The translations under genes were made by a program, and so were the position numbers. The notes under the pieces are model-generated. The model did not search any database and was not told the DNA's origin. It saw nothing but the letters and a program-made list of their open reading frames with translations. A stretch of DNA of 64,000 bases, taken from Rubrobacter indicoceani. Its GTDB lineage: Bacteria > Actinomycetota > Rubrobacteria > Rubrobacterales > Rubrobacteraceae. The stretch spans positions 1,054,001 through 1,118,000 of the forward strand of contig NZ_CP031115.1 of assembly GCF_003568865.1 (NCBI RefSeq), in the 5' to 3' direction. Below are positions 47,277 through 60,622 of this stretch, in pieces; position 1 is the stretch's first letter, and each line of letters opens with the position of its first letter.

Positions 47277-47876
47277 ATGATCTCCGCCCTCGAACACTAC
47301 TCGTACTGCCCGCGTCAGTGCGCCCTGATCCACGTCGAGCACGTCTACGACGAGAACCTCTACACCCTTCGCGGCACCCGCGCCCACACCCGCGCCCACG
47401 ACGAGAACGAATCCGGCTCCGAAGAAGGCGTCCGCATCGAACGCGGGATGCCGCTCTTCTCGGAACGACTCGGCCTTATCGGCAAGTCCGACATCGTCGA
47501 GTTCGGGCCGGACGAAACCCCGTTTCCCATTGAGTACAAGGTCGGGCCGAGAAAGGAGAACCACCACGACGACCTCCAGCTCTGCGCTCAGGCGTTGTGT
47601 CTGGAGGAGATGTTCGGTGGAGGAGTTCCGGCCGGGGCAGTGTTTCACCATTCGTCTCGCAGGCGGCGCGAGGTCGTTTTCACAGAAGGGTTGCGGCGTG
47701 AAACGGAAGAGGCCGTCGGGCGGGTCCGGGAGATGATCTTGGCCTCAGAAGTCCCGCCGCCCGTCGCCGATGCCCGCTGCCCGAAGTGCTCGCTCTTCGA
47801 CGCCTGTATGCCGTTTACGCTCGCGCAGATGGATGTGAAAGCCGGACTCGCCCGACTCTTCGACCCGGAAAGGTAG
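47277..47876 (+). CDS. cas4: Cas4, adaptation nuclease
   Basis: 199 residues, RecB-like Fe-S nuclease that trims prespacers and selects PAM orientation with Cas1-Cas2. N-terminal Cys in YCPRQCALIHVEHVY and the C-terminal cluster ARCPKCSLFDACMP bind the Fe-S. The nuclease core has GKSDIVEFG, PIEYKVGPRK and HHDDLQLCAQALCLEEMF. The frame is open from 47244, but the GGAGGAGG site at 47261-47268 and family starts (MISALEHY) support ATG 47277 (or GTG 47274). Confidence 0.94.
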   Translation: MISALEHYSYCPRQCALIHVEHVYDENLYTLRGTRAHTRAHDENESGSEEGVRIERGMPLFSERLGLIGKSDIVEFGPDETPFPIEYKVGPRKENHHDDLQLCAQALCLEEMFGGGVPAGAVFHHSSRRRREVVFTEGLRRETEEAVGRVREMILASEVPPPVADARCPKCSLFDACMPFTLAQMDVKAGLARLFDPER

Positions 47877-47887
47877 GCATCCCTTTG

Positions 47888-48919
47888 TTGAAGCCGCTTC
47901 TCAACACGCTCTATGTTCAGGCCCAGGGGTCGTATCTCCGCCTCGACCACGAGACGCTCAAGCTGGAGGTCGAGCGCAAGCTGGTCGGGCAGGTCCCGTT
48001 GCAGCACATCGGGGGGATGGTCGTCTTCGGGAACGTGATGGTCAGCCCGTTTCTGATGCACCGCTTCGGAGACGACGGACGCAGCCTCGTCTGGATGTCT
48101 CAGGCCGGACGCTTCAAGTGCCGCCTCTCCGGCCCCGTCACGGGAAACGTGCTTCTCAGAAAAGCTCAGTACACCGCTCAGTCCGAGCCGACGGCGGCTT
48201 TCCACATCGCCCGCAACATCGTCGCCGGAAAAGTCAAAAACAGCCGCACGGTCGTACAGCGGGCCGCCCGCGAAGCAGAAGATGCTGCGGATAGAGTCGC
48301 TCTTGAAGAGGCTTCGACCTTTCTTGCGGCTTCACTTCGGGCTGCGGGACGGGCGCGGAGTCTGGATGAGGTTCGCGGCGTCGAAGGCCGGGCCGGGCGG
48401 GTGTACTTCGAGGTCTTCGGGCGGATGGTTCGGATGAACAGGGATGCGTTCGTTTTCAACGGAAGGAACCGGAGGCCGCCGAGGGACAGGGTAAACGCGC
48501 TGCTCTCGTTTGTTTACGCGCTGGTTCGGGGGGACTGCGTAGCTGCGTGCGAAGGGGTCGGTCTCGACCCGCAGTTCGGATATCTTCACGCGCTCCGTTC
48601 GGGAAGGCCGTCGCTCGCGCTCGACCTGATGGAGGAGCTGCGCCCGGTAATAGCGGACAGGCTCGTGCTGTCTCTTATAAACCGTCAGCAGCTCTCAGGC
48701 CGTGATTTCGAACCGCGTCCCGGTGGCTCCGTCAACCTCACCGAACCCGGCAGAAAGACCGTTCTTGCGGCTTACCAGAGCCGCAAACAGAAGGAGACAA
48801 CTCACCCGGTAATCGGGCAGTCGGTTCCGCTCGGCCTCGTTCCACATCTGCAGGCCCGGCTTCTTGCCCGTCATCTGCGTGGTGATTCTGCAGCGTACTT
48901 ACCCTTCACCCCGAAATGA
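47888..48919 (+). CDS. cas1: Cas1, spacer integrase
   Basis: 343 residues, type I-C Cas1. Metal-dependent integrase. Family start KPLLNTLYVQAQGSYLRLD. Catalytic residues lie in VEGRAGRVYFEVF (Glu), FGYLHALRSGRPSLALDL (His) and the following EELRP acidic region. The frame is open from 47786, but that overlaps cas4; TTG at 47888 gives the standard N terminus. 11 bases after cas4. Confidence 0.95.
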   Translation: MKPLLNTLYVQAQGSYLRLDHETLKLEVERKLVGQVPLQHIGGMVVFGNVMVSPFLMHRFGDDGRSLVWMSQAGRFKCRLSGPVTGNVLLRKAQYTAQSEPTAAFHIARNIVAGKVKNSRTVVQRAAREAEDAADRVALEEASTFLAASLRAAGRARSLDEVRGVEGRAGRVYFEVFGRMVRMNRDAFVFNGRNRRPPRDRVNALLSFVYALVRGDCVAACEGVGLDPQFGYLHALRSGRPSLALDLMEELRPVIADRLVLSLINRQQLSGRDFEPRPGGSVNLTEPGRKTVLAAYQSRKQKETTHPVIGQSVPLGLVPHLQARLLARHLRGDSAAYLPFTPK

Positions 48920-48929
48920 GGAGGCGAGC

Positions 48930-49220
48930 TTGTACATCCTTGTAACCTACGACGTGAACACCGAGACAAAGGCCGGACGCCGCCGTCTGCGTCAGGTCGC
49001 AGTAATCTGCAAGGACTTCGGACAGAGAGTACAGTTCTCCGTCTTTGAGTGCCAGGTCGAACCCGCCCGCTACGAAGAAATGAAACACCGGCTCACAAAG
49101 ACCATGAACCCCGACGAAGACAGCCTCCGCATCTACCGCCTCCCCGGACAAAGAGAACAGCACATAGAGACCTATGGCGTGGACCGTTATGTATCCTTTG
49201 AAGAGCCACTGATCTTCTAA
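48930..49220 (+). CDS. cas2: Cas2, adaptation scaffold
   Basis: 96 residues from TTG 48930 (after GAGGAGGCGAG). Ferredoxin-like dimer bridging two Cas1 dimers. Family marks: YILVTYDVNTETKAGRRRL, VAVICKDFGQRVQFSVFEC, LRIYRLPGQREQHIETYG. The cas operon ends here, 202 bases before the first repeat. Confidence 0.96.
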   Translation: MYILVTYDVNTETKAGRRRLRQVAVICKDFGQRVQFSVFECQVEPARYEEMKHRLTKTMNPDEDSLRIYRLPGQREQHIETYGVDRYVSFEEPLIF

Positions 49221-49422: not shown

Positions 49423-52400
49423 GTTGCACCCGGCTTCCGAGCCGGGTGAGGATTGGAACAACGCCGAGGTGCTGAGGCGGGAGAGGGAGCGTCGTTGCAC
49501 CCGGCTTCCGAGCCGGGTGAGGATTGGAACGGGATGCCGTCGTTGTCCTGATCCGGGTCGTCGCGTTGCACCCGGCTTCCGAGCCGGGTGAGGATTGGAA
49601 CGTAGAGAAGGTCGGAGCGAACCTGAACGAGCGCGGTTGGGTTGCACCCGGCTTCCGAGCCGGGTGAGGATTGGAACCATTACATGGGCGGCATGACAAA
49701 ACCCGTCGCGTGTTGCACCCGGCTTCCGAGCCGGGTGAGGATTGGAACGGGATGCCGTCGCCGTCCGGGTCAGCGTCCGGGTCGTTGCACCCGGCTTCCG
49801 AGCCGGGTGAGGATTGGAACACCAGGGGGAACATCTGGACTATCGATTGTCGTCGGGTTGCACCCGGCTTCCGAGCCGGGTGAGGATTGGAACCCGCTCA
49901 AGGCTGAGGACCAGGGGCTCTTGGTTTTCGAGTTGCACCCGGCTTCCGAGCCGGGTGAGGATTGGAACTGAGCTCCCCAAGAGCCAGTATCGACCGTTGG
50001 TGGTTGCACCCGGCTTCCGAGCCGGGTGAGGATTGGAACGGGATACCGTCGCCGTCCTGATCCGGGTCGTCGCGGGTTGCACCCGGCTTCCGAGCCGGGT
50101 GAGGATTGGAACCGTTCGTGTAGAAACCTGCCTTTGTGGTGTTCCGGAGTTGCACCCGGCTTCCGAGCCGGGTGAGGATTGGAACTCTCGGCAGGGAGTC
50201 TTTCAACGCTCCCAAATGACGTTGCACCCGGCTTCCGAGCCGGGTGAGGATTGGAACACGTCGGCTGCGGTAAATCCACCGTCTTCTATCGGGTTGCACC
50301 CGGCTTCCGAGCCGGGTGAGGATTGGAACCCCAAATCACTCCTGACGTGCGTTCCGGGTTTTGGTTGCACCCGGCTTCCGAGCCGGGTGAGGATTGGAAC
50401 ACGTTGATTGAGGAACACCGGGATCGCAATGGCGGCGGTTGCACCCGGCTTCCGAGCCGGGTGAGGATTGGAACACCTCCCTTCCGTCACGGTCGAAGGT
50501 GGTTTGAAGGCGTTGCACCCGGCTTCCGAGCCGGGTGAGGATTGGAACCGAGAGGTGGAGTAGGAAAGATGGGGACTCGCCGCCCTGTTGCACCCGGCTT
50601 CCGAGCCGGGTGAGGATTGGAACCAAAGGGTGTCGAGGCCCTCGCCGCCGGAGTCCTTGTTGCACCCGGCTTCCGAGCCGGGTGAGGATTGGAACCGGTA
50701 CGGGAAACTGGGACGGCGGCGGGAACGTCGTTGCACCCGGCTTCCGAGCCGGGTGAGGATTGGAACGTAGTCTTCGGGCTTATATCCGGCTCGCTTACGG
50801 GTTGCACCCGGCTTCCGAGCCGGGTGAGGATTGGAACTCATTGGTTTGGTTGCCGGATACCCTGTCCGGCGGGGGGTTGCACCCGGCTTCCGAGCCGGGT
50901 GAGGATTGGAACATCAAGCCCGAGTACGTCGCGAAGATACGAACCGAGTTGCACCCGGCTTCCGAGCCGGGTGAGGATTGGAACCTCTGAACCTGCGCGA
51001 GAAGCTCGGAGACGCGTTGTTGCACCCGGCTTCCGAGCCGGGTGAGGATTGGAACGATAAAACTTTCGGTCGGCCTGCCGATACCTCCAGGAGGTTGCAC
51101 CCGGCTTCCGAGCCGGGTGAGGATTGGAACGTCAGCTTGATACTGAGCGTCTAGCGCGCCGTGGCGTTGCACCCGGCTTCCGAGCCGGGTGAGGATTGGA
51201 ACACGTGAACGAACGGCACGAAGTCGAAGCCCGTATAGTTGCACCCGGCTTCCGAGCCGGGTGAGGATTGGAACATTTCCTCGCACGGAAATATAGGCGG
51301 AGGTAGTAGTTGCACCCGGCTTCCGAGCCGGGTGAGGATTGGAACACGTCGCGACCGGAACGAGGGGCTTGAGGGGATGCGTTGCACCCGGCTTCCGAGC
51401 CGGGTGAGGATTGGAACGGCCTCCATCTCGCCATGCCGGAGCGCGTCGTACAGTTGCACCCGGCTTCCGAGCCGGGTGAGGATTGGAACTACTTTATTTC
51501 TAGCTTCCGACCAGTCCCTAGTGGGCGTTGCACCCGGCTTCCGAGCCGGGTGAGGATTGGAACATGCGCGCCCGTCCGCAGGCGCGTGGTGCGATTAGGT
51601 TGCACCCGGCTTCCGAGCCGGGTGAGGATTGGAACGGTCGGACGCGCCGCTCAGGGCATGGATTCGGGGCGTTGCACCCGGCTTCCGAGCCGGGTGAGGA
51701 TTGGAACACACCGCTTCTAGGCGCACTGGCCTCCGTCGGTTCGCGTTGCACCCGGCTTCCGAGCCGGGTGAGGATTGGAACATCAACATCCGCGACTGGA
51801 TGACCGGAACAATCGAGGTTGCACCCGGCTTCCGAGCCGGGTGAGGATTGGAACAAGCCACGCTTCGCGTTGTTCCGTTGAGAGTGAGACAGTTGCACCC
51901 GGCTTCCGAGCCGGGTGAGGATTGGAACGTGACGCCGGGTTCGTACTTGATAGTAGAAGACACGAAGTTGCACCCGGCTTCCGAGCCGGGTGAGGATTGG
52001 AACTCGATATTGCCGACCCGAGCGTTGCCGGGGAATGGTTGCACCCGGCTTCCGAGCCGGGTGAGGATTGGAACACCGACCAGCAGCCGCACCACAGGAA
52101 CTCGTGGCAGGTTGCACCCGGCTTCCGAGCCGGGTGAGGATTGGAACATCATAAGCGGTGAGGGTTACGTTGCCCCTCCGGGGTTGCACCCGGCTTCCGA
52201 GCCGGGTGAGGATTGGAACACCGACAGGCGCGAGTGGGAGTTCTGTCCGACCTGGTTGCACCCGGCTTCCGAGCCGGGTGAGGATTGGAACTAGTTGTCA
52301 CGATTTCTCCTTATCTCGTCCCGTTGGTTGCACCCGGCTTCCGAGCCGGGTGAGGATTGGAACTGACCGTTCTGGCGGATGCCTTGCGTTTACCGCGCTC

Positions 52401-54466
52401 GTTGCACCCGGCTTCCGAGCCGGGTGAGGATTGGAACTATGAAAACCTCGTCGGGTGCCGCGTCGTCCATGTGGTTGCACCCGGCTTCCGAGCCGGGTGA
52501 GGATTGGAACGAGAAGAGGCGAGCGGCGATAAATCACCGACTCGCGGGTTGCACCCGGCTTCCGAGCCGGGTGAGGATTGGAACAACGGTTCCAGAGAGG
52601 GCGGCGACAGGGCGATACGGTTGCACCCGGCTTCCGAGCCGGGTGAGGATTGGAACCGGTATCCATTTCGCAGCGTACGCGTGCCAGGCATCCGGTTGCA
52701 CCCGGCTTCCGAGCCGGGTGAGGATTGGAACAAGCTGACAGAGGGAACCCAGGAGAACCTGAATGGTTGCACCCGGCTTCCGAGCCGGGTGAGGATTGGA
52801 ACACGCCCGCGTCAACTTGGGAGCCGAAGATCAGGAAGTTGCACCCGGCTTCCGAGCCGGGTGAGGATTGGAACGTTGACCGTTGACTGCATGCACGAGT
52901 CGCCCTCGTTGTTGCACCCGGCTTCCGAGCCGGGTGAGGATTGGAACTGCCAGAAGTGCCGGTGCACCTTCCCCCCTTGTGGTTGCACCCGGCTTCCGAG
53001 CCGGGTGAGGATTGGAACGAGCTTCTCCCGCTCTCCCGTATAGGGGTTTGCAGCGGTTGCACCCGGCTTCCGAGCCGGGTGAGGATTGGAACAGGGATCG
53101 GGAGAGGAGGTTGTCCCCGCGCTCCGGTGTTGCACCCGGCTTCCGAGCCGGGTGAGGATTGGAACTTTGCGAGGGATGCTGCGAGTTCCTTTGTCTCAGA
53201 GCGTTGCACCCGGCTTCCGAGCCGGGTGAGGATTGGAACATCCCCGGCGCACGGCGGACGCGGAAGTCCCGGCCTGTTGCACCCGGCTTCCGAGCCGGGT
53301 GAGGATTGGAACCCCAGGTTGTGGTTCACCGTCCAGACCGTGGCCGGGTTGCACCCGGCTTCCGAGCCGGGTGAGGATTGGAACTGCGACTGGCATGAGC
53401 CTGAGAAGGTCATGGAAGACGTTGCACCCGGCTTCCGAGCCGGGTGAGGATTGGAACCTGCTAGGCTTCAAACCCACCACGGCTCTATCTAGTTGCACCC
53501 GGCTTCCGAGCCGGGTGAGGATTGGAACGAGTCCGTAATCAGAACGTCCGGCTCTACCTGCGCCCGTTGCACCCGGCTTCCGAGCCGGGTGAGGATTGGA
53601 ACCGAAGCGTCGCCCCGCCGCTCGGGGCAAACAAACGTTGCACCCGGCTTCCGAGCCGGGTGAGGATTGGAACCTTGCCGCATCGCCCGGAGCCTGACCC
53701 CAGCGGTAGTTGCACCCGGCTTCCGAGCCGGGTGAGGATTGGAACACAGGCTCTTTGGAGCCGAGGCGGAACCGATCGGAGTTGCACCCGGCTTCCGAGC
53801 CGGGTGAGGATTGGAACTCTTCAAAGAGGCTTCCGTCTATATCGGCCTGTACGGTTGCACCCGGCTTCCGAGCCGGGTGAGGATTGGAACGGAGTGCCGG
53901 TGGTGGTATCCAACTCCGTAAGGGCGTTGCACCCGGCTTCCGAGCCGGGTGAGGATTGGAACCGGGCGTGTTAGGCGACCAGGGCGGCGATGCGGGGTTG
54001 CACCCGGCTTCCGAGCCGGGTGAGGATTGGAACATCACCGGAAATAAACGGTTCGTTGCTGGTGGTGGTTGCACACGGCTTCCGAGCCGGGTGAGGATTG
54101 GAACACCGTGCGCGGAAAGGAGATGCGGATTATCTGATCGTTGCACCCGGCTTCCGAGCCGGGTGAGGATTGGAACATAGCCCGCGTCGAGGCTGTGATG
54201 CCGAGCTGGAACGTTGCACCCGGCTTCCGAGCCGGGTGAGGATTGGAACCTTGAGCATCCACTCGACCGCACGGTCAGCAGCCTTGTTGCACCCGGCTTC
54301 CGAGCCGGGTGAGGATTGGAACATCAAGACCGAAGGGGGCTACTACGTGAGCCCCGGTTGCACCCGGCTTCCGAGCCGGGTGAGGATTGGAACACTAACC
54401 TCTCGCCCGCAGAAACAGCAATCCACGTCGTTGCACCCGGCTTCCGAGCCGGGTGAGGATTGGAAG
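49423..54466 (+). CRISPR. Type I-C CRISPR array, 70 repeats of 37 nt, 69 spacers
   Basis: Repeats start at 49423, 49494, 49565 and so on to 54430, by hand count. The repeat is GTTG, a perfect palindromic stem CACCCGGC-TTCCGA-GCCGGGTG, then AGGATTGGAAC; spacers are 34-39 nt. Cutting at the stem base would leave an 11-nt 5' handle, as expected for Cas5c processing. All repeats look identical except number 65 (54068, C to A at repeat position 8) and the last (final C replaced by G). Both sit at the distal end, so transcription and growth run from the left. Spacers 2, 5 and 9 are related to each other. No stop codon of the next gene is separated from the array: it ends 2 bp before a convergent CDS. 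Confidence 0.98.
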
Positions 54467-54468
54467 GC

Positions 54469-55131
54469 CTATAGGGGCTGCGTTTCACACTCGCGGTTGA
54501 CATAGCCGCTGCGGAAGGGCTTTACTTCGCCTGTTTCCGGGCTGTAGGCGTGTCGCCAGATGCAGCCGGTGTCGCCGGCGAGCAGGTGGATGGAGACCGA
54601 TGATCCCTGCGAGGTCGTGCGGACGCGGTGTATGTCGTCCTCCGGCGGGATGAGGGGGTAGAAGTCTCCCCGGCTTATCTCCCTCGTGAGCGTCACCGAG
54701 AGTGCTTCGCGCTCCGAGACGGGGCTTGCGTTATCGGTGCGGGCGTAGACGGTCTCGGCCTGTTCTCCTGCGTAGAGCCCGATCAGGCCCCACGCGAGGT
54801 GGTCGTGGACGGGGGTCTCCGAGCCGGGCGGCACGACAAGCGAGAAAAGAGAGAGGTCACCGTCCTCGCCGGTCCCGGAGCGAAAGATCAGGTACTGACC
54901 GATGCTGCCGCCCATCCCGCTCTCCGGCGCGGGCGACCGGAATTCCTGCGGGAGCCAGGCTTTGTCTTCGAGGAGCCGGGCAAAGGCGGGTTTTATCCGC
55001 CCGATGGCCGCCGCCGGGCTTTCGGCGGCGGCCATCTCACCCCGCACCCCGGCAATGAAGTCCCGCACGACCGGGGTGTCGAGAAGGTATTCGTCGCGTT
55101 CCGGGGAGGGTTCGTGGAGGCCGACGCACAT
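54469..55131 (-). CDS. Cupin, cysteine-dioxygenase-like
   Basis: 220 residues. Cupin fold related to the cysteine dioxygenase/predicted metal-dependent group: LFSLVVPPGSETPVHDHLAW carries the HxH metal ligands, LIGLYAGEQAETVY follows, and DIHRVRTTSQGSSVSIHLLA supplies the third His. GCIWRHAYSPETGEV ends the domain. It may oxidise a thiol or related small molecule; substrate unknown. Its ATG overlaps the stop of the lipocalin-like gene, and its stop lies 2 bp from the CRISPR array. Confidence 0.82.
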   Translation of the reverse strand: MCVGLHEPSPERDEYLLDTPVVRDFIAGVRGEMAAAESPAAAIGRIKPAFARLLEDKAWLPQEFRSPAPESGMGGSIGQYLIFRSGTGEDGDLSLFSLVVPPGSETPVHDHLAWGLIGLYAGEQAETVYARTDNASPVSEREALSVTLTREISRGDFYPLIPPEDDIHRVRTTSQGSSVSIHLLAGDTGCIWRHAYSPETGEVKPFRSGYVNRECETQPL

Positions 55132-55568
55132 CAGACGCCCGCCCTTTCCCAGACCAGAACGACCCTCCCCGGCGACCTGTCGTCCGCCGGGTGGGTCGAG
55201 AGGGTGAGGGCTCGCCGCGAATCGTCGAAGGCGTAGTAGCGGGTCTGGTCCCCGCCGGTCCAGTTCGGGATCAGGCTCGTCGTGACGTGGTGGATGACCT
55301 TTGTCTCGCTCGCCACCTCGAACGGCCCGGCGTAGGCGAGGTATGACCGGAGGGCCTCTCCCTGCTCTTCGGGGCTTGCGGAACCGTAGGCGTCGGATGG
55401 GAATCCGGGCCGACCGGAGCGCATGATGTTCGCGCTCATGTAGCCGTCCGGGGTGTACATGATGATGCCGACGGGGTTCTGACCGTAGGGCTGCGAAACC
55501 TCCCCGTCCGCCCCGAACCTCCTCATCGAGCGGAGGTTCCACGCCCCCGTAAAACGAGCTGTATCCAC
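55131..55568 (-). CDS. Lipocalin-like domain protein
   Basis: 145 residues. Matches the lipocalin-like family often found beside biosynthetic genes: FTGAWNLRSMRRFGADGEV, PVGIIMYTPDGYMSANIM, YLAYAGPFEVASETKVIHHV and NWTGGDQTRYYAFD. No signal peptide is visible. GTG start at 55568 after AGAAGGGG; the frame is open further upstream but without family character. Probably binds a small hydrophobic ligand (inference). It overlaps the cupin start. Confidence 0.8.
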   Translation of the reverse strand: MDTARFTGAWNLRSMRRFGADGEVSQPYGQNPVGIIMYTPDGYMSANIMRSGRPGFPSDAYGSASPEEQGEALRSYLAYAGPFEVASETKVIHHVTTSLIPNWTGGDQTRYYAFDDSRRALTLSTHPADDRSPGRVVLVWERAGV

Positions 55569-55609
55569 GAAAACCCCTTCTTTAAAAAGCCGGACCTTAC
55601 AGCGAAACC

Positions 55610-56353
55610 TTACCCGCCCGCGGGGATAGCATGCTCCTCCAGCCGCCCGTACAGCTCCAGACACTCAAGGAGCAGCGGCTCCAGCCGCTTCGGGACCGGA
55701 GGCGGTCTCTTCCGGGGGGCGGCGAACCCGGTCGAGGCGTGGACGTTTCTATACCAGTACTTTGCCCAGATGCCGTCCTCCGGTTTCGGACCAGCGGGCC
55801 ACGACAGCATCTCCCCGTAGAACGGGAGGCCGAGGCGACAACAGAGCCCCGAGAGAACCGCCCGCGGGTCTCGGAGCAGCGTCGCGGAGTCAAGGACGAT
55901 CGGCGCGTCGCCCGAAGCGAGAAGGTACTCGAGTATCTCCACCTGTTCCAGAAGCCCGGTGTCTCGGAGGACGGGGGTTGGGATCTTCTCTGCGAGCGAC
56001 GGCAGCATCAGGCGCGGATCCCGCACGAGCAGCACGTTCGTTACCTGATCCAGAAAGCTCCTGTCGAGCCCGGCGAGGTGGTGGGCCATGTTCTTGAAGA
56101 AGCGCACGCGGGTCTCGGAGCCGCCGAGGATGGTATCGCGGATCACCGCCTCGGGGCCGGTCTCCATGTCGCCGAGAACCTCCGCCCTGCCGGGGTGATC
56201 GACCCCGGTGAACGCCAGGTAATGGCCGTAGAACGGCTCGTCCACGACGGAGGTGTCCGGACGCTGACGAAAGGAGTACATCAGCGCGGTCGAGACGTTT
56301 CTCGGGCCACTCCACACCGAGAGCCGCAGGGCGTCGCCCGGGAGGTCAGGCAC
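55610..56353 (-). CDS. P-loop sulfotransferase-like protein paired with a class IV aminotransferase
   Basis: 247 residues. The start RLSVWSGPRNVSTALMYSF is the P-loop of the group annotated sulfotransferase-like. NVLLVRDPRLMLPSLAEKI corresponds to the 3'-phosphate site, and the C-terminal half has WPAGPKPEDGIWAKYWY. In plants and some bacteria this domain occurs fused to or next to a branched-chain-aminotransferase-like domain (recollection, not searched), as here: the two genes overlap by eight bases. The true reaction is not established. Confidence 0.78.
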   Translation of the reverse strand: MPDLPGDALRLSVWSGPRNVSTALMYSFRQRPDTSVVDEPFYGHYLAFTGVDHPGRAEVLGDMETGPEAVIRDTILGGSETRVRFFKNMAHHLAGLDRSFLDQVTNVLLVRDPRLMLPSLAEKIPTPVLRDTGLLEQVEILEYLLASGDAPIVLDSATLLRDPRAVLSGLCCRLGLPFYGEMLSWPAGPKPEDGIWAKYWYRNVHASTGFAAPRKRPPPVPKRLEPLLLECLELYGRLEEHAIPAGG

Positions 56354-57284
56354 CGGAGGCCGCCTCCCTCGTCGCCTTGCGGTAGAGGTCGCGGAGCCGC
56401 GCCGTCAACGAGCCCGGCTCGCCGCCCCCGATGGTGCGCCCGTCCACCTGTATTACCGGGGTCAGGCCCCCGAAGGTCCCCGTGACGAACGACTCGTCGG
56501 CGTCGTATACGTCGGTGAGGGAGAAGGGCTTTTCGTAAACGGGGATTCCGTCTGTCCGGCAGAGTTCGATGATGATGCGCCGCGTTATGCCGTTCAGGGA
56601 GTACTGCCCGGTCGAGGTCCAGACCTCGCCGTTCTTCACGATAAAGAAGTTGGTCGCGTTGCAGGTCGCGACGGCCCCGGTCGGGTCGAGCATGAGCGCT
56701 TCATCGGCCCCGGCCTCCAGGGCCTGCAGAAGCGCTATCACCTCGTGCAGCTTGCTGTGGCAGTTCAGCTTCTGATCCAGCGCGTCCGGCGGCGGCCTTC
56801 TGACGCTTGTGGTGAAGAGCCGCACCCCCGCGTTCGTCACGTCCGGGTCGGCCCTTTTGTGCTCCGCGATTATAACGACGTTGGCCCCGCCGACCACGAG
56901 CCTCGGGTCCTGCGACGGCGTCTTCTTGTCGCCCCGCGTGACCATCAGCCGCACGTGAACGCCGTCCGACATGCCGTTTTTCCTGACCGTCTCCCGGAGC
57001 GCGGCTACGACCTCCTCCCGGCTCAGCCCGATGTCTATTTGCGTCGCCTTCGCCGCCTGAAACAGCCGGTCCAGGTGGAGGTCGAGAAAGGCGAACTCGC
57101 CCTCGTGGAGCCTTATGCCCTCCCAGATGCCGTCCCCGACAAGAAACGCCGAGTCGAAAACGGAGATCCTCGCCTCATCCCTGCGGAAGAACTCACCGTT
57201 TATGTAGACGAACACGTCCCGGTTTCGGATGTCCGGGAGCGCTTCGTGCGTACCCCGCGATCTCCCCTCGGACCCCTCGGACAA
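56346..57284 (-). CDS. Class IV aminotransferase (branched-chain/D-amino acid type)
   Basis: 312 residues. Fold-type IV PLP enzyme. The N-terminal pattern is VYINGEFFRRDEARISVFDS; the PLP lysine lies in LNCHSKLHEVIALLQALE; EALMLDPTGAVATCNATNFF and SLNGITRRIIIELC bind the phosphate. It resembles IlvE, but the pairing with a sulfotransferase-like protein suggests a different substrate. TTG start at 57284. The 275 bases upstream, up to the M32 gene, hold no further gene. Confidence 0.87.
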   Translation of the reverse strand: MSEGSEGRSRGTHEALPDIRNRDVFVYINGEFFRRDEARISVFDSAFLVGDGIWEGIRLHEGEFAFLDLHLDRLFQAAKATQIDIGLSREEVVAALRETVRKNGMSDGVHVRLMVTRGDKKTPSQDPRLVVGGANVVIIAEHKRADPDVTNAGVRLFTTSVRRPPPDALDQKLNCHSKLHEVIALLQALEAGADEALMLDPTGAVATCNATNFFIVKNGEVWTSTGQYSLNGITRRIIIELCRTDGIPVYEKPFSLTDVYDADESFVTGTFGGLTPVIQVDGRTIGGGEPGSLTARLRDLYRKATREAASGA

Positions 57285-57559: not shown

Positions 57560-59083
57560 CTACAGCGCGTAGAGCTCGGTGTATTTGTCTTCGAGGTACT
57601 TGAGGTACGGCGCGGTGTCGAGCGGGCGGCCGGTTACGCGCTCGACGAGATCGTCCGGGTCGAAGCGGCTCCCGTGGCGGTAGATGTTCTTCTCCATCCA
57701 GCCGTGCAGCGCGCTGAAGTTCCCGTCTGATATGTCGTCCGGGATGGACGGGTTCTCCTCCAAGGCCTTCTCGTAGAACTGCACCGAGAGGACGTTCCCC
57801 ATGCTGTAGGTCGGGAAGTAGCCGAAGAGGCCGCTCGACCAGTGAACGTCCTGAAGCGCGCCGAGCGAGTCGTTCTCCGGGACTATGCCGAGGTACTCCT
57901 CCATCTTCGCGTTCCAGGCGGCGGGGATATCGTCTACCGAGAGTTCGCCTTCCATCAGCGCGACCTCGATCTCGAACCGCAGCAGAACGTGCAGGTTGTA
58001 GGTAAGCTCGTCGGAGTCTATGCGGATAAAGCCGGGCCGGGCCTCGTTGACGGCCCGGTAGAACGTCTCCACGTCCATGCCCTCGAACGCGCCGGGGAAC
58101 AACTCCGCAAGGACGGGCAGGTAGCGCCCCCAGAACCCGCGCGACCGCCCGACGATGTTCTCCCAGAGCCGCGACTGCGACTCGTGGACCCCCATCGAGA
58201 CCCCGCCGCCCAGGGGCGTGCGCGAGTAGGCCGGGCTTACGCCCTGCTCGTACATTCCGTGCCCCGACTCGTGCATCGAGGTGAACAGGGCCTTGTCTAT
58301 CCGGGCCGGGGAGTAGTTCGTCGTCAGGCGCACGTCCTCCGGGCCGCCGATGTTTATGCAGAAGGCGTGGACGACCTTGTCCTGCCGACCCCGGCTCCAG
58401 TCGTAGCCGTAGTCGGTCAGGACGCGCCGGATAAACGCCTCCTGCCGGGCCTCGTCGAACTCGCCGAGGATCGCCGTTTCGCGGGCGGTCTCCTCCCGGC
58501 TCGCGGCCTCGGTTACCTTTTTCAGCAGCGGGACGATCCCGGCCTTCAGGCTTTCGAACATCGGTTCGAGCTTCGCCTTTCGGCCGTTTGTCTCGAAAAG
58601 GTCGAGGAGCGCGTCGTAGGGGTGGTCCCTGTAGCCCAGGTGCTCCGCCGTCTCCTTCTGAATAGCCATGAGCTTCTCGAGGTGCGGCGCGAAGATAGAC
58701 CAGTCGGCCCTCTCCCGGGCCTCGACCCACGCGGGCTGGGCGAGGCTCGTCGCCCGCGCGCGCTCCTCGACGAGCTTCGACGGAAGCTTCGTTGACTTGT
58801 CGAAGCCGCGCTTCGCGACCCGCACCATCGCGCCCTCCTCGGAGTCGGCGTCGAAGGCGTCTTCGAGCGAGGAGATCAGGTCGCCAGTCTCCTTCGCCAC
58901 GAGCGTTTCGTGGGAGAGGCGGCTCAGGGTGGCGAGCTGTTCGGAGCGCAGGCCGACCGCCTTCTTCGGCATGTAGGTTTCCTGGTCCCAGTGCAGAAGG
59001 CTCGCCGCCGCGCCGAGGTCGCTCATGGTGGCGAACCGGGCCTTGAGGTTTTCCAGTTTTTCGCGTCTCTGTTCTGAATTCAT
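57560..59083 (-). CDS. M32 family metallocarboxypeptidase (Taq type)
   Basis: 507 residues. Zinc carboxypeptidase with the HExxH motif in FTSMHESGHGMYEQG (~270) and the downstream ligand in GVHESQSRLWEN. Other family blocks: SLLHWDQETYMPKKAV, YDALLDLFETN, RIDSDELTYNLHVLLRFEIE and HWSSGLFGYFPTYSMGN. The frame is open to 59686, but ATG 59083 gives the normal N terminus. It is divergent from the NADH dehydrogenase gene. Confidence 0.95.
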   Translation of the reverse strand: MNSEQRREKLENLKARFATMSDLGAAASLLHWDQETYMPKKAVGLRSEQLATLSRLSHETLVAKETGDLISSLEDAFDADSEEGAMVRVAKRGFDKSTKLPSKLVEERARATSLAQPAWVEARERADWSIFAPHLEKLMAIQKETAEHLGYRDHPYDALLDLFETNGRKAKLEPMFESLKAGIVPLLKKVTEAASREETARETAILGEFDEARQEAFIRRVLTDYGYDWSRGRQDKVVHAFCINIGGPEDVRLTTNYSPARIDKALFTSMHESGHGMYEQGVSPAYSRTPLGGGVSMGVHESQSRLWENIVGRSRGFWGRYLPVLAELFPGAFEGMDVETFYRAVNEARPGFIRIDSDELTYNLHVLLRFEIEVALMEGELSVDDIPAAWNAKMEEYLGIVPENDSLGALQDVHWSSGLFGYFPTYSMGNVLSVQFYEKALEENPSIPDDISDGNFSALHGWMEKNIYRHGSRFDPDDLVERVTGRPLDTAPYLKYLEDKYTELYAL

Positions 59084-59260
59084 ACGGGCGATAGTAGCAC
59101 CGCGTCCGGCGGCTATCCGGGTTGCTTGGCCCGGCATCCCGGGGTCCGCAGCCCCTGCGAGAATGGCCGGGAGGGGGATCGGGTAAACCAGTCCGGTGCG
59201 CGGGGGTGGCGGTGCGGACGGGAAGCCGTGCAGGGTTCGCTCAAGGAAAGGCGGCAGACG

Positions 59261-60622
59261 ATGAAAATGCTCGGCAAGGCGGCGCTCGCGGCGGGGGCGG
59301 TCGCGGGGGGTGTTCTGCTCAGGAGAAGCCTCGCCCCGAAACCCCGCTACGAGGTCTGGGAGCGAAAGCCCTTCCGCGACTTCAGGAGAAAAGTCCTGAT
59401 CGTCGGCGGCGGCTTCGGCGGCTACACGGCGGCAAAAGAGCTGTGTCGGCTCACCCGCGACCGGGACGACATCGGGGTGATGGTCATAAACCGGGAGAAC
59501 TACTTCACCTTCTGGCCGATGCTCGCCGGGGTGATCTCCTCCGACATCGAGGTCAAGAACGTCGCCCAGCCGCTCAGGCGCGCCCTGATCCGGGCCGGAG
59601 CGAGCTTCCGCCGCGCCGAGCTCGAATCCGTGGACCCGGTCGGGAGGGTCGTCTCCGCCGGCGGGGCGGAGTTGCCCTACGACCATCTCGTCGTCGCCCT
59701 CGGGGCGTCCCCGGCCTACTTCGACATCCCCGGCGTCGAGGAGTTCGCCATCTCCATAAAAGGCATCGGGGCGGGCGAGGAGATCCGGAACCGCGTCATC
59801 GAACGCTACGAGGAGGCGACCCTTGCGAGGGGCGAGGTCCCGGCTTCAAGGCTCACCTTCGTCGTTATCGGCGGGGGCGCGACGGGCGTGGAGACGGCGG
59901 CGGAGCTTCACGCCCTTATCCACAAGACCCTCGCCCCCGACTACCCGAACATAAACCCCCGGAAGGTCAGGATAGTGCTGGTGGACGCAAACCCCGAGGT
60001 GCTCAAGGAGCTGGACCCCGCGCTCAGGAAAGTCGCGAGAAAGAAGCTCGCCCAGCTCGACATCGAGGTCAGAAACCGGGTGCGGGCCGAGGAGATCACG
60101 GCGGAGAAAGTCGTTCTGAACGACGGAACGGAGATACCCGCCGAGAACGTTGTCTGGACCGCCGGGGCGCGGGCCAGCGAGACCCTGATGAAACTTCCCT
60201 TTGTCCACGACGAACGTCGCGGCCTGAAGGTGGATTCGTTTCTGCGCCTTCACGAACACGAGGCCATCTGGGGCATCGGAGACTGCGCCGAGAACTACTC
60301 GACCGACGGCAGCTCCGTACCGCCGAACGCGCAGGCCGCCGTACAGCAGGGGAAGGTCGTTGCAAGGAACATCCTTGCCGCGATAGACGGCGAGCCGCTC
60401 GAACCCTTCGACTACAAGCCCGTCGGGCAACTCGTCGAGCTCGGCAGCGAGTACGCCGTCAACGACGTGATGGGGGTCAGGTTCAGCGGGCTGCTCGCCG
60501 CGCTCTTCTGGCGGGCGACCTACCTCTACAAGCTCGAAAGCCCCCAGAGCCGGGTCAGGATCGGGACGGACTGGATCCTCGACCTCTTTATGGACCCCGC
60601 CGTTACCCAGATCCGACGCTAA
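59261..60622 (+). CDS. Type II NADH dehydrogenase-like FAD oxidoreductase
   Basis: 453 residues from ATG 59261 (after AAGGAAAGG). Two Rossmann motifs: VLIVGGGFGGYTAAKEL for FAD (~47) and FVVIGGGATGVETAAEL for NADH (~205), plus GIGDCAE for FAD near the C terminus, then RATYLYKLESPQSR. A short hydrophobic N terminus (LGKAALAAGAVAGGVLL) may anchor it. It would pass electrons from NADH to quinone without pumping protons. It converges with the GNAT gene with a four-base overlap. Confidence 0.9.
   Translation: MKMLGKAALAAGAVAGGVLLRRSLAPKPRYEVWERKPFRDFRRKVLIVGGGFGGYTAAKELCRLTRDRDDIGVMVINRENYFTFWPMLAGVISSDIEVKNVAQPLRRALIRAGASFRRAELESVDPVGRVVSAGGAELPYDHLVVALGASPAYFDIPGVEEFAISIKGIGAGEEIRNRVIERYEEATLARGEVPASRLTFVVIGGGATGVETAAELHALIHKTLAPDYPNINPRKVRIVLVDANPEVLKELDPALRKVARKKLAQLDIEVRNRVRAEEITAEKVVLNDGTEIPAENVVWTAGARASETLMKLPFVHDERRGLKVDSFLRLHEHEAIWGIGDCAENYSTDGSSVPPNAQAAVQQGKVVARNILAAIDGEPLEPFDYKPVGQLVELGSEYAVNDVMGVRFSGLLAALFWRATYLYKLESPQSRVRIGTDWILDLFMDPAVTQIRR

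Follow-up and report, generated by a model that had tools for sequence, protein, structure and literature searches.

Partnership of a lysine-less aminotransferase-like protein with a PAPS-type sulfotransferase in more than 10 bacterial phyla

What does an aminotransferase-like protein do beside a sulfotransferase when the lysine that defines its enzyme class is absent? The question is raised by a locus of Rubrobacter indicoceani at positions 54469-57284 of the window, the 64,000-nucleotide stretch of contig NZ_CP031115.1 analyzed here. Four minus-strand open reading frames (ORFs) together fill the locus and encode a fold-type-IV aminotransferase-like protein (AT), a sulfotransferase of the type that uses 3'-phosphoadenosine 5'-phosphosulfate (PAPS) (ST), a lipocalin-family protein (LIP), and a cupin (CUP). 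The ORFs are real, and their adjacency or overlap, noted in an earlier sequence-only reading, is confirmed: the AT and ST genes share 8 bases, a gap of 41 bases lies between ST and LIP, and the LIP stop and CUP start codons share one base (TGATG). That reading had taken the four genes for a unit acting on a sulfur-containing or sulfated amino acid derivative. Our analysis retains the association of AT with ST, which is wider than could be seen from the window, and removes LIP and CUP from it.

Association of the aminotransferase-like and sulfotransferase genes

Within the class to which R. indicoceani belongs, ST orthologs (at least 63% identity) and AT (E up to 1e-60) were searched for separately in 39 genomes and fall in the same 14. 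The other 25 hold neither, and none holds only one of the two (Fisher p 6.6e-11, with relatedness ignored). AT adjoins ST in 13 of the 13 class relatives that hold an ST ortholog; the nearest ST relatives, 63-67% identical, are mostly Rubrobacter records. Across four samples, AT lies within 1.5 kb of ST and on the same strand at 118 of 135 ST loci, and 14 of the remaining 17 non-adjacent genomes encode a lysine-less AT elsewhere. The samples overlap, with ten Rubrobacteraceae genomes present in two of them and one locus entered twice (L125 and L184); hence, residue counts below refer to 107 distinct AT sequences.

The widest sample consists of the best 80 of 313 ST relatives, was assembled by a contig scan with an alignment of 14 STs and two ST peptide patterns, and favors close relatives. 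Of its loci, 79 were used, including one (L111) that stops about 290 bases past ST; the locus left out, L103, mirrors L102 on the same contig. AT is found within 1.5 kb on the same strand at 68 of the 79, and 8 of the 11 genomes with non-adjacent loci encode a lysine-less AT elsewhere. By record title, the carriers belong to Actinomycetota, Deinococcota (Truepera), Acidobacteriota, Planctomycetota, Chloroflexota, Latescibacterota, Gemmatimonadota, Rhodothermales, Poribacteria, Bacteroidota, Verrucomicrobiota (Opitutaceae), Calditrichia, and Gammaproteobacteria. Two planctomycete loci (L106 and L114) carry a single ORF with both Pfam domains, a fusion of AT and ST. Among Pseudomonadota, 37 of 398 genomes carry such an ST (E up to 1e-30). 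AT is adjacent at 24 of the 30 loci examined, and each of the other six genomes encodes, away from ST, a lysine-less AT with 68-73% identity to the linked query sequence. Among Actinomycetota, ST was matched in 25 of 396 genomes, and AT is adjacent at all 12 loci (11 genomes) outside the class of R. indicoceani. The partnership of AT and ST is kept in more than 10 bacterial phyla.

Other genes near the pair are bound to particular lineages. Judged by eye, planctomycetes have histidine-phosphatase-like ORFs there, and Latescibacteria have ORFs resembling a sulfatase or a dioxygenase; in Pseudomonadota the neighbors are MsrA, a PfkB kinase, malic enzyme, and argininosuccinate synthase. In 27 Pseudomonadota regions with the pair or with ST alone (L214-L233 and L241-L247), a methionine sulfoxide reductase gene is near in 12 and an argininosuccinate synthase gene in 11. 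The matches L102 and L103 stand at mirrored positions on JACVRN010000106.1, as if in an inverted repeat or an assembly artifact. A second Sulfotransfer_5-like family, 28-35% identical, was also encountered in the majority of the class genomes (L002 and L016-L031); its genes are in tandem in L021, L022, and L028, and no AT was found in those loci.

Lost cofactor contacts and a retained pocket

Family models score AT as a branched-chain or class IV aminotransferase, and the sequence-only reading called it an aminotransferase dependent on pyridoxal 5'-phosphate (PLP). In fold type IV, the PLP contacts described in PMC12429042 are a lysine that forms the Schiff base (K158), a glutamate at N1, a tyrosine at O3', and an Arg/Thr/Thr set at the phosphate. 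The HMMER alignment places the lysine of the branched-chain aminotransferase motif NIKSLNYLNN on N174 of AT (KLNCHSKLHEV), and MAFFT agrees. Of the 107 distinct ST-linked ATs, 51 have Asn at this position, 56 have His, and none has Lys, a result that removes the basis for the earlier name. Gene order tracks the residue: AT precedes ST in 49 of the 51 Asn-type cases, and ST precedes AT in 55 of the 56 His-type cases. The N1 glutamate is likewise missing from AT, which has Thr207; the Asn type has Thr in 41 of 46, and the Variovorax group has Ser. In place of the O3' tyrosine, AT has Lys178; at this site, 41 of 46 Asn-type sequences have Lys, all 56 His-type sequences have Leu, and those of the Variovorax group have Arg. 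In an actinobacterial His-type subgroup (L282-L284, L286, and L287), the motif takes the variant form DQNIHSCNLINSILAK, and even the neighboring K172 is Asn.

Other parts of the pocket are kept. The phosphate cup (R73, T234, and T270) is present in all three of the groups compared, and the modeled structure (predicted local distance difference test score, pLDDT, 86.5) retains the fold, with Z of 39.4 to 7z79 and 35.2 to 5e25. Ten positions are at least 90% conserved in both AT branches and rare in lysine-containing rows: W54, M105, H110, L113, K120, E141, L156, D170, M198, and N209. H110 and R112 occupy the place of the Y-x-R motif of branched-chain enzymes. By sequence, neither AT nor the relatives linked to ST can be ordinary transaminases, and the conservation makes the pocket look as though it has acquired a new job rather than decayed.

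Of the 247 positions of ST, 62 are conserved in 95% or more of 80 aligned rows, including WSGPRNVSTALMY, DEP, HH, and R-x7-S. Residues P17 to Y26 are identical in 80 of 80 sequences, R111 in 80 of 80, and S119 in 77 of 80. We take WSGPRNVSTALMY to be the 5' loop for PAPS and R-x7-S to be its 3'-phosphate site, so that the motifs expected of a PAPS-binding protein appear to be in place. The ST model (pLDDT 92) has a sulfotransferase fold; its best structural match is the olefin synthase domain 4gox (Z 14.8), followed by curacin domain 4gbm (14.4), values tied with those of tyrosylprotein sulfotransferases (13.7-14.2). APS kinase, the source of PAPS, is encoded in the R. indicoceani genome and in 23 of 23 carriers searched.

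Phylogenetic trees were examined for both proteins. The AT tree contains 56 of 120 rows, thinned by rule, after exclusion of five rows without Asn, His, or Lys at the column (other or misaligned class IV proteins). A branch with support 99/97 separates all lysine-less rows from the 14 lysine rows; within the lysine-less side, the Asn branch, which holds AT and 7z79, has support 100/100, and the His branch has 100/99. The tree is unrooted, with a midpoint used for drawing, and to call the lysine-less rows a clade assumes a root among the lysine rows, several of which are long branches. In the ST tree (71 of 124 rows), the Asn and His labels of the linked ATs are clustered yet need 7 and 10 changes. 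Asn-linked STs form separate sets, mainly Pseudomonadota in one and Rubrobacter with Truepera, Acidimicrobiia, and Opitutaceae in the other; both parts of the tree contain His-linked STs. These patterns suggest that Asn- and His-type ATs have probably taken each other's place beside ST.

Possible functions of the pair

In the mechanism that we favor, PAPS would supply a sulfuryl group that ST passes on to a small, anionic, hydroxylated metabolite. No longer tied to PLP-lysine chemistry, the AT fold would bind or convert the same metabolite, as substrate or as sulfated product, in its old pocket. For this it would use the phosphate cup, R112, and a new set of residues comprising W54, H110, K120, D170, and N209. 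Residue 174 is probably not a catalytic base, because the Asn and His types seem to be interchangeable partners of one ST family; catalytic work would instead fall to residues common to both types. If the types have indeed been swapped, both therefore do the same job, and the swapping thus speaks against a mechanism with a His base, like that of ColD, as the general one. We tentatively place this reading of AT and ST, a two-protein sulfation module in which a transaminase fold has been repurposed to bind or convert an anionic metabolite without Schiff-base chemistry, a little short of an even chance. In its broadest form, the proposal is evenly poised: the pair would represent an ancient, widespread, and unnamed bacterial sulfate-transfer pathway in which a former PLP-dependent transaminase fold is the regular partner of a PAPS sulfotransferase and carries out a new reaction in the old pocket, for example, sulfation-assisted elimination or the handling of a phosphorylated or carboxylated acceptor.

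Several points weigh against this proposal. No third conserved gene that names a pathway was found around the pair in 79 wide loci, 27 Pseudomonadota regions, 17 regions of Actinomycetota, Truepera, and Opitutaceae, and around 14 unlinked ATs, a search that used Pfam on ten Pseudomonadota neighbors and mechanical gene calling by which small or odd genes were perhaps missed. No lysine-less AT was found in 3 of the 11 wide-sample genomes with non-adjacent loci (L101, L102, and L116); ST may work alone, or these assemblies may be incomplete. Relatives from the Sulfotransfer_5 family occur in 34 of the 39 class genomes, mostly as paralogs 28-35% identical to ST and without AT; a dependence on AT is therefore not general in the family. 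Many genomes have APS kinase in any case (11 of 14 controls), which makes its presence a weak criterion. In the His type, the N1 glutamate is retained (56 of 56), as expected of a protein that binds PLP or pyridoxamine 5'-phosphate (PMP). Partner swapping rests partly on weak forks of the ST tree, and many of the label changes involve unlinked STs. Finally, what the data show is the coupling, the loss of the lysine, the conservation, and the folds of the predicted models, and the roles of the pocket residues are assigned by homology rather than from a bound ligand.

Two alternatives give AT and ST other roles. ColD is a PMP-dependent dehydratase with His in place of Lys, and the sulfate added by the sulfotransferase domains of olefin synthase and curacin serves as a leaving group. 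By analogy, ST could install sulfate as a leaving group, and the lysine-less AT, holding PMP or free PLP, could drive its elimination. AT retains the phosphate cup, His-type sequences combine His for Lys with the N1 glutamate, and the olefin synthase and curacin domains are the top structural matches of the ST model. However, these matches are tied with the tyrosylprotein sulfotransferases, and the Asn type, to which the R. indicoceani protein itself belongs, has neither a base at residue 174 nor a glutamate at the N1 position (Thr or Ser), yet both types partner related STs. We consider elimination unlikely. Slightly less probable still is that AT is a pseudoenzyme, a noncatalytic scaffold or regulator of ST comparable to LCB1, the lysine-less subunit in serine palmitoyltransferase. 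The missing lysine and tyrosine, together with the missing glutamate of the Asn type, would be consistent with this role, as would the frequent adjacency and the two fusions to ST; but the pocket residues that are new to the family are 90-100% conserved across distant phyla, more than a scaffold seems to need, and in some genomes the AT and ST genes lie apart.

Two further alternatives are very improbable. AT might be a transaminase that uses another lysine, namely, K120, K143, K172, or K178. K120 is present in 105 of the 107 distinct ATs, but it is Arg in the other 2, K143 is Ser in 12, K172 is Arg in 21 and Asn in 5, and at position 178 the His type has Leu and the Variovorax group has Arg. 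An alternative catalytic lysine was rejected as a general explanation, none being invariant among the 107. The other is the four-gene pathway of the sequence-only reading, in which a lipocalin carrier and a thiol dioxygenase would join AT and ST in acting on a sulfur-containing or sulfated amino acid. The tight packing of the genes on one strand in this genome speaks for it, but AT lacks the PLP lysine, and the survey of relatives that had been suggested as a check finds the genes apart, with all four together only in loci of the R. indicoceani genome itself. CUP orthologs (at least 61% identity) are present in 13 of the 39 class genomes, 3 of which are among the 14 that carry the pair, and their presence is not associated with it (Fisher p 0.30, with relatedness ignored). 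AT, ST, or LIP was not found beside CUP orthologs at any of 12 fetched loci from relatives (2.3-3.6 kb). LIP has matches of only 26-44% identity, in 6 of 38 other class genomes, and none of 7 other LIP loci has AT, ST, or CUP beside it. The four-gene unit was rejected, since LIP and CUP neighbor the pair in only this one of the genomes examined. LIP and CUP have no part in the AT-ST system.

The locus and known relatives

Table 1. Features of the locus, with positions counted within the window
Feature	Positions	Strand	Evidence
AT, lysine-less fold-type-IV aminotransferase-like protein, 312 residues, TTG start	56346..57284	-	Aminotran_4, 148.5 bits, E 3.5e-43
ST, PAPS-type sulfotransferase (Sulfotransfer_5), 247 residues, GTG start	55610..56353	-	PF19798, 158.3 bits (cut-off 23.2), E 2.6e-46
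LIP, Lipocalin_5 protein, local neighbor outside the conserved unit	55131..55568	-	PF13924, 127.7 bits, E 4e-37
CUP, 3-mercaptopropionate-dioxygenase-like cupin, local neighbor outside the conserved unit	54469..55131	-	PDB 6xb9, E 4.8e-19
Asn174 codon of AT, where the Schiff-base lysine is expected	56763..56765	-	HMMER and MAFFT alignments; 9j32 is the N174K mutant of a Variovorax homologue
Lys178 codon of AT, where the O3'-binding tyrosine is expected	56751..56753	-	Alignment; tyrosine role from PMC12429042 and PMC5131300
ST residues 14-26, WSGPRNVSTALMY, presumed PAPS 5'-phosphosulfate loop	56276..56314	-	Conservation; follows strand 9-15 in the model
ST residues 111-119, R-x7-S, presumed PAPS 3'-phosphate site	55997..56023	-	Conservation; follows strand 105-110 in the model

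The features of the locus are collected in Table 1; the GTG start of LIP was picked to fit the Pfam domain. The host genome (3.08 Mb) holds two class IV aminotransferase genes, that of AT and an IlvE-like one with the normal lysine (L152). Upstream of AT, at 57560-59686, lies an apparently unrelated gene for an M32 carboxypeptidase (Peptidase_M32). At the other end, the four genes run tail-on into a CRISPR array of 70 near-identical 36-base repeats (49423-54465), the last of which ends 3 bases past the CUP stop codon. Beyond it, plus-strand ORFs at 47786-48919 and 48864-49220 appear by eye to be Cas1- and Cas2-like.

The description of CUP as thiol-dioxygenase-like holds for its metal site and is weakened elsewhere. 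Its Pfam match to CDO_I is borderline (23.3 bits versus a cut-off of 23.0). Like 3-mercaptopropionate dioxygenase (6xb9 and 3uss), with which it aligns overall, CUP has an HxH...H metal site, and these three histidines (HDH and a third His) are found in CUP and in 12 of 12 aligned orthologs. Thiol dioxygenases of the CDO/MDO type usually have a Ser-His-Tyr triad. The MDO sequence at this site is SIHVY, whereas all 12 rows that reach it (CUP and 11 orthologs; a 13th row ends short) read SIHLL or SVHLL, with Leu in place of Tyr. The CUP group may be no ordinary thiol dioxygenase.

Metabolic models built on the aminotransferase name of AT would be wrong in many phyla. A whole group without the defining residue of PLP enzymes is nevertheless strongly conserved, so that a new chemistry or ligand becomes approachable with two small proteins, and the partnership points to an unrecognized sulfate-related reaction. 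The coupling to a sulfotransferase is also a functional clue for a protein of which both a crystal structure and an N174K mutant exist but for which no role was found in the open-licence literature. No paper was found there on the AT-ST pair, on 7Z79, or on At3g05190/At5g27410, although absence from that literature is weak evidence; nor were the consistent association with a sulfotransferase, the branch with His, the two fusions, or the shared pocket found there. The Arabidopsis proteins named "branched-chain-amino-acid aminotransferase-like" may, we presume, be ST-AT fusions.

The folds of both proteins are known, and an aminotransferase-like protein without the lysine has been noticed before, as is clear from the titles given to 7z79 and 9j32. 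The nearest PDB protein to AT is 7z79, titled "aminotransferase-like protein from Variovorax paradoxus", with Asn at 174; 9j32 is titled as its mutant N174K. This protein belongs to the same Asn-type group as AT, with 50% identity, Z of 39.4, and N174, W54, H110, K120, and N209 in common. It was deposited as a lone protein, whereas the link to ST drawn here comes from loci in Pseudomonadota that share its motif type (L192, L194, L199, and L200) rather than from that strain. With the fold-type-IV branched-chain aminotransferases (5e25, 5cm0, 5mqz, and IlvE), AT shares the fold (Z 33-35), the R/T/T phosphate cup, E-G-x-R, and the arginine of Y/H-x-R. It differs from them in lacking the Schiff-base lysine, the O3' tyrosine, and, as an Asn-type protein, the N1 glutamate, and in the replacement of Tyr by His at 110 and of Phe by Trp at 54. 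ST shares the PAPS fold with 4gox, 4gbm, and the tyrosylprotein sulfotransferases (Z 14.1-14.8 and root-mean-square deviation 3.5-4.5 A over 205-221 residues in the first five rows). Unlike these, to which it is only 12-18% identical, ST is a free-standing protein of 247 residues, neither a polyketide synthase domain nor a Golgi enzyme.

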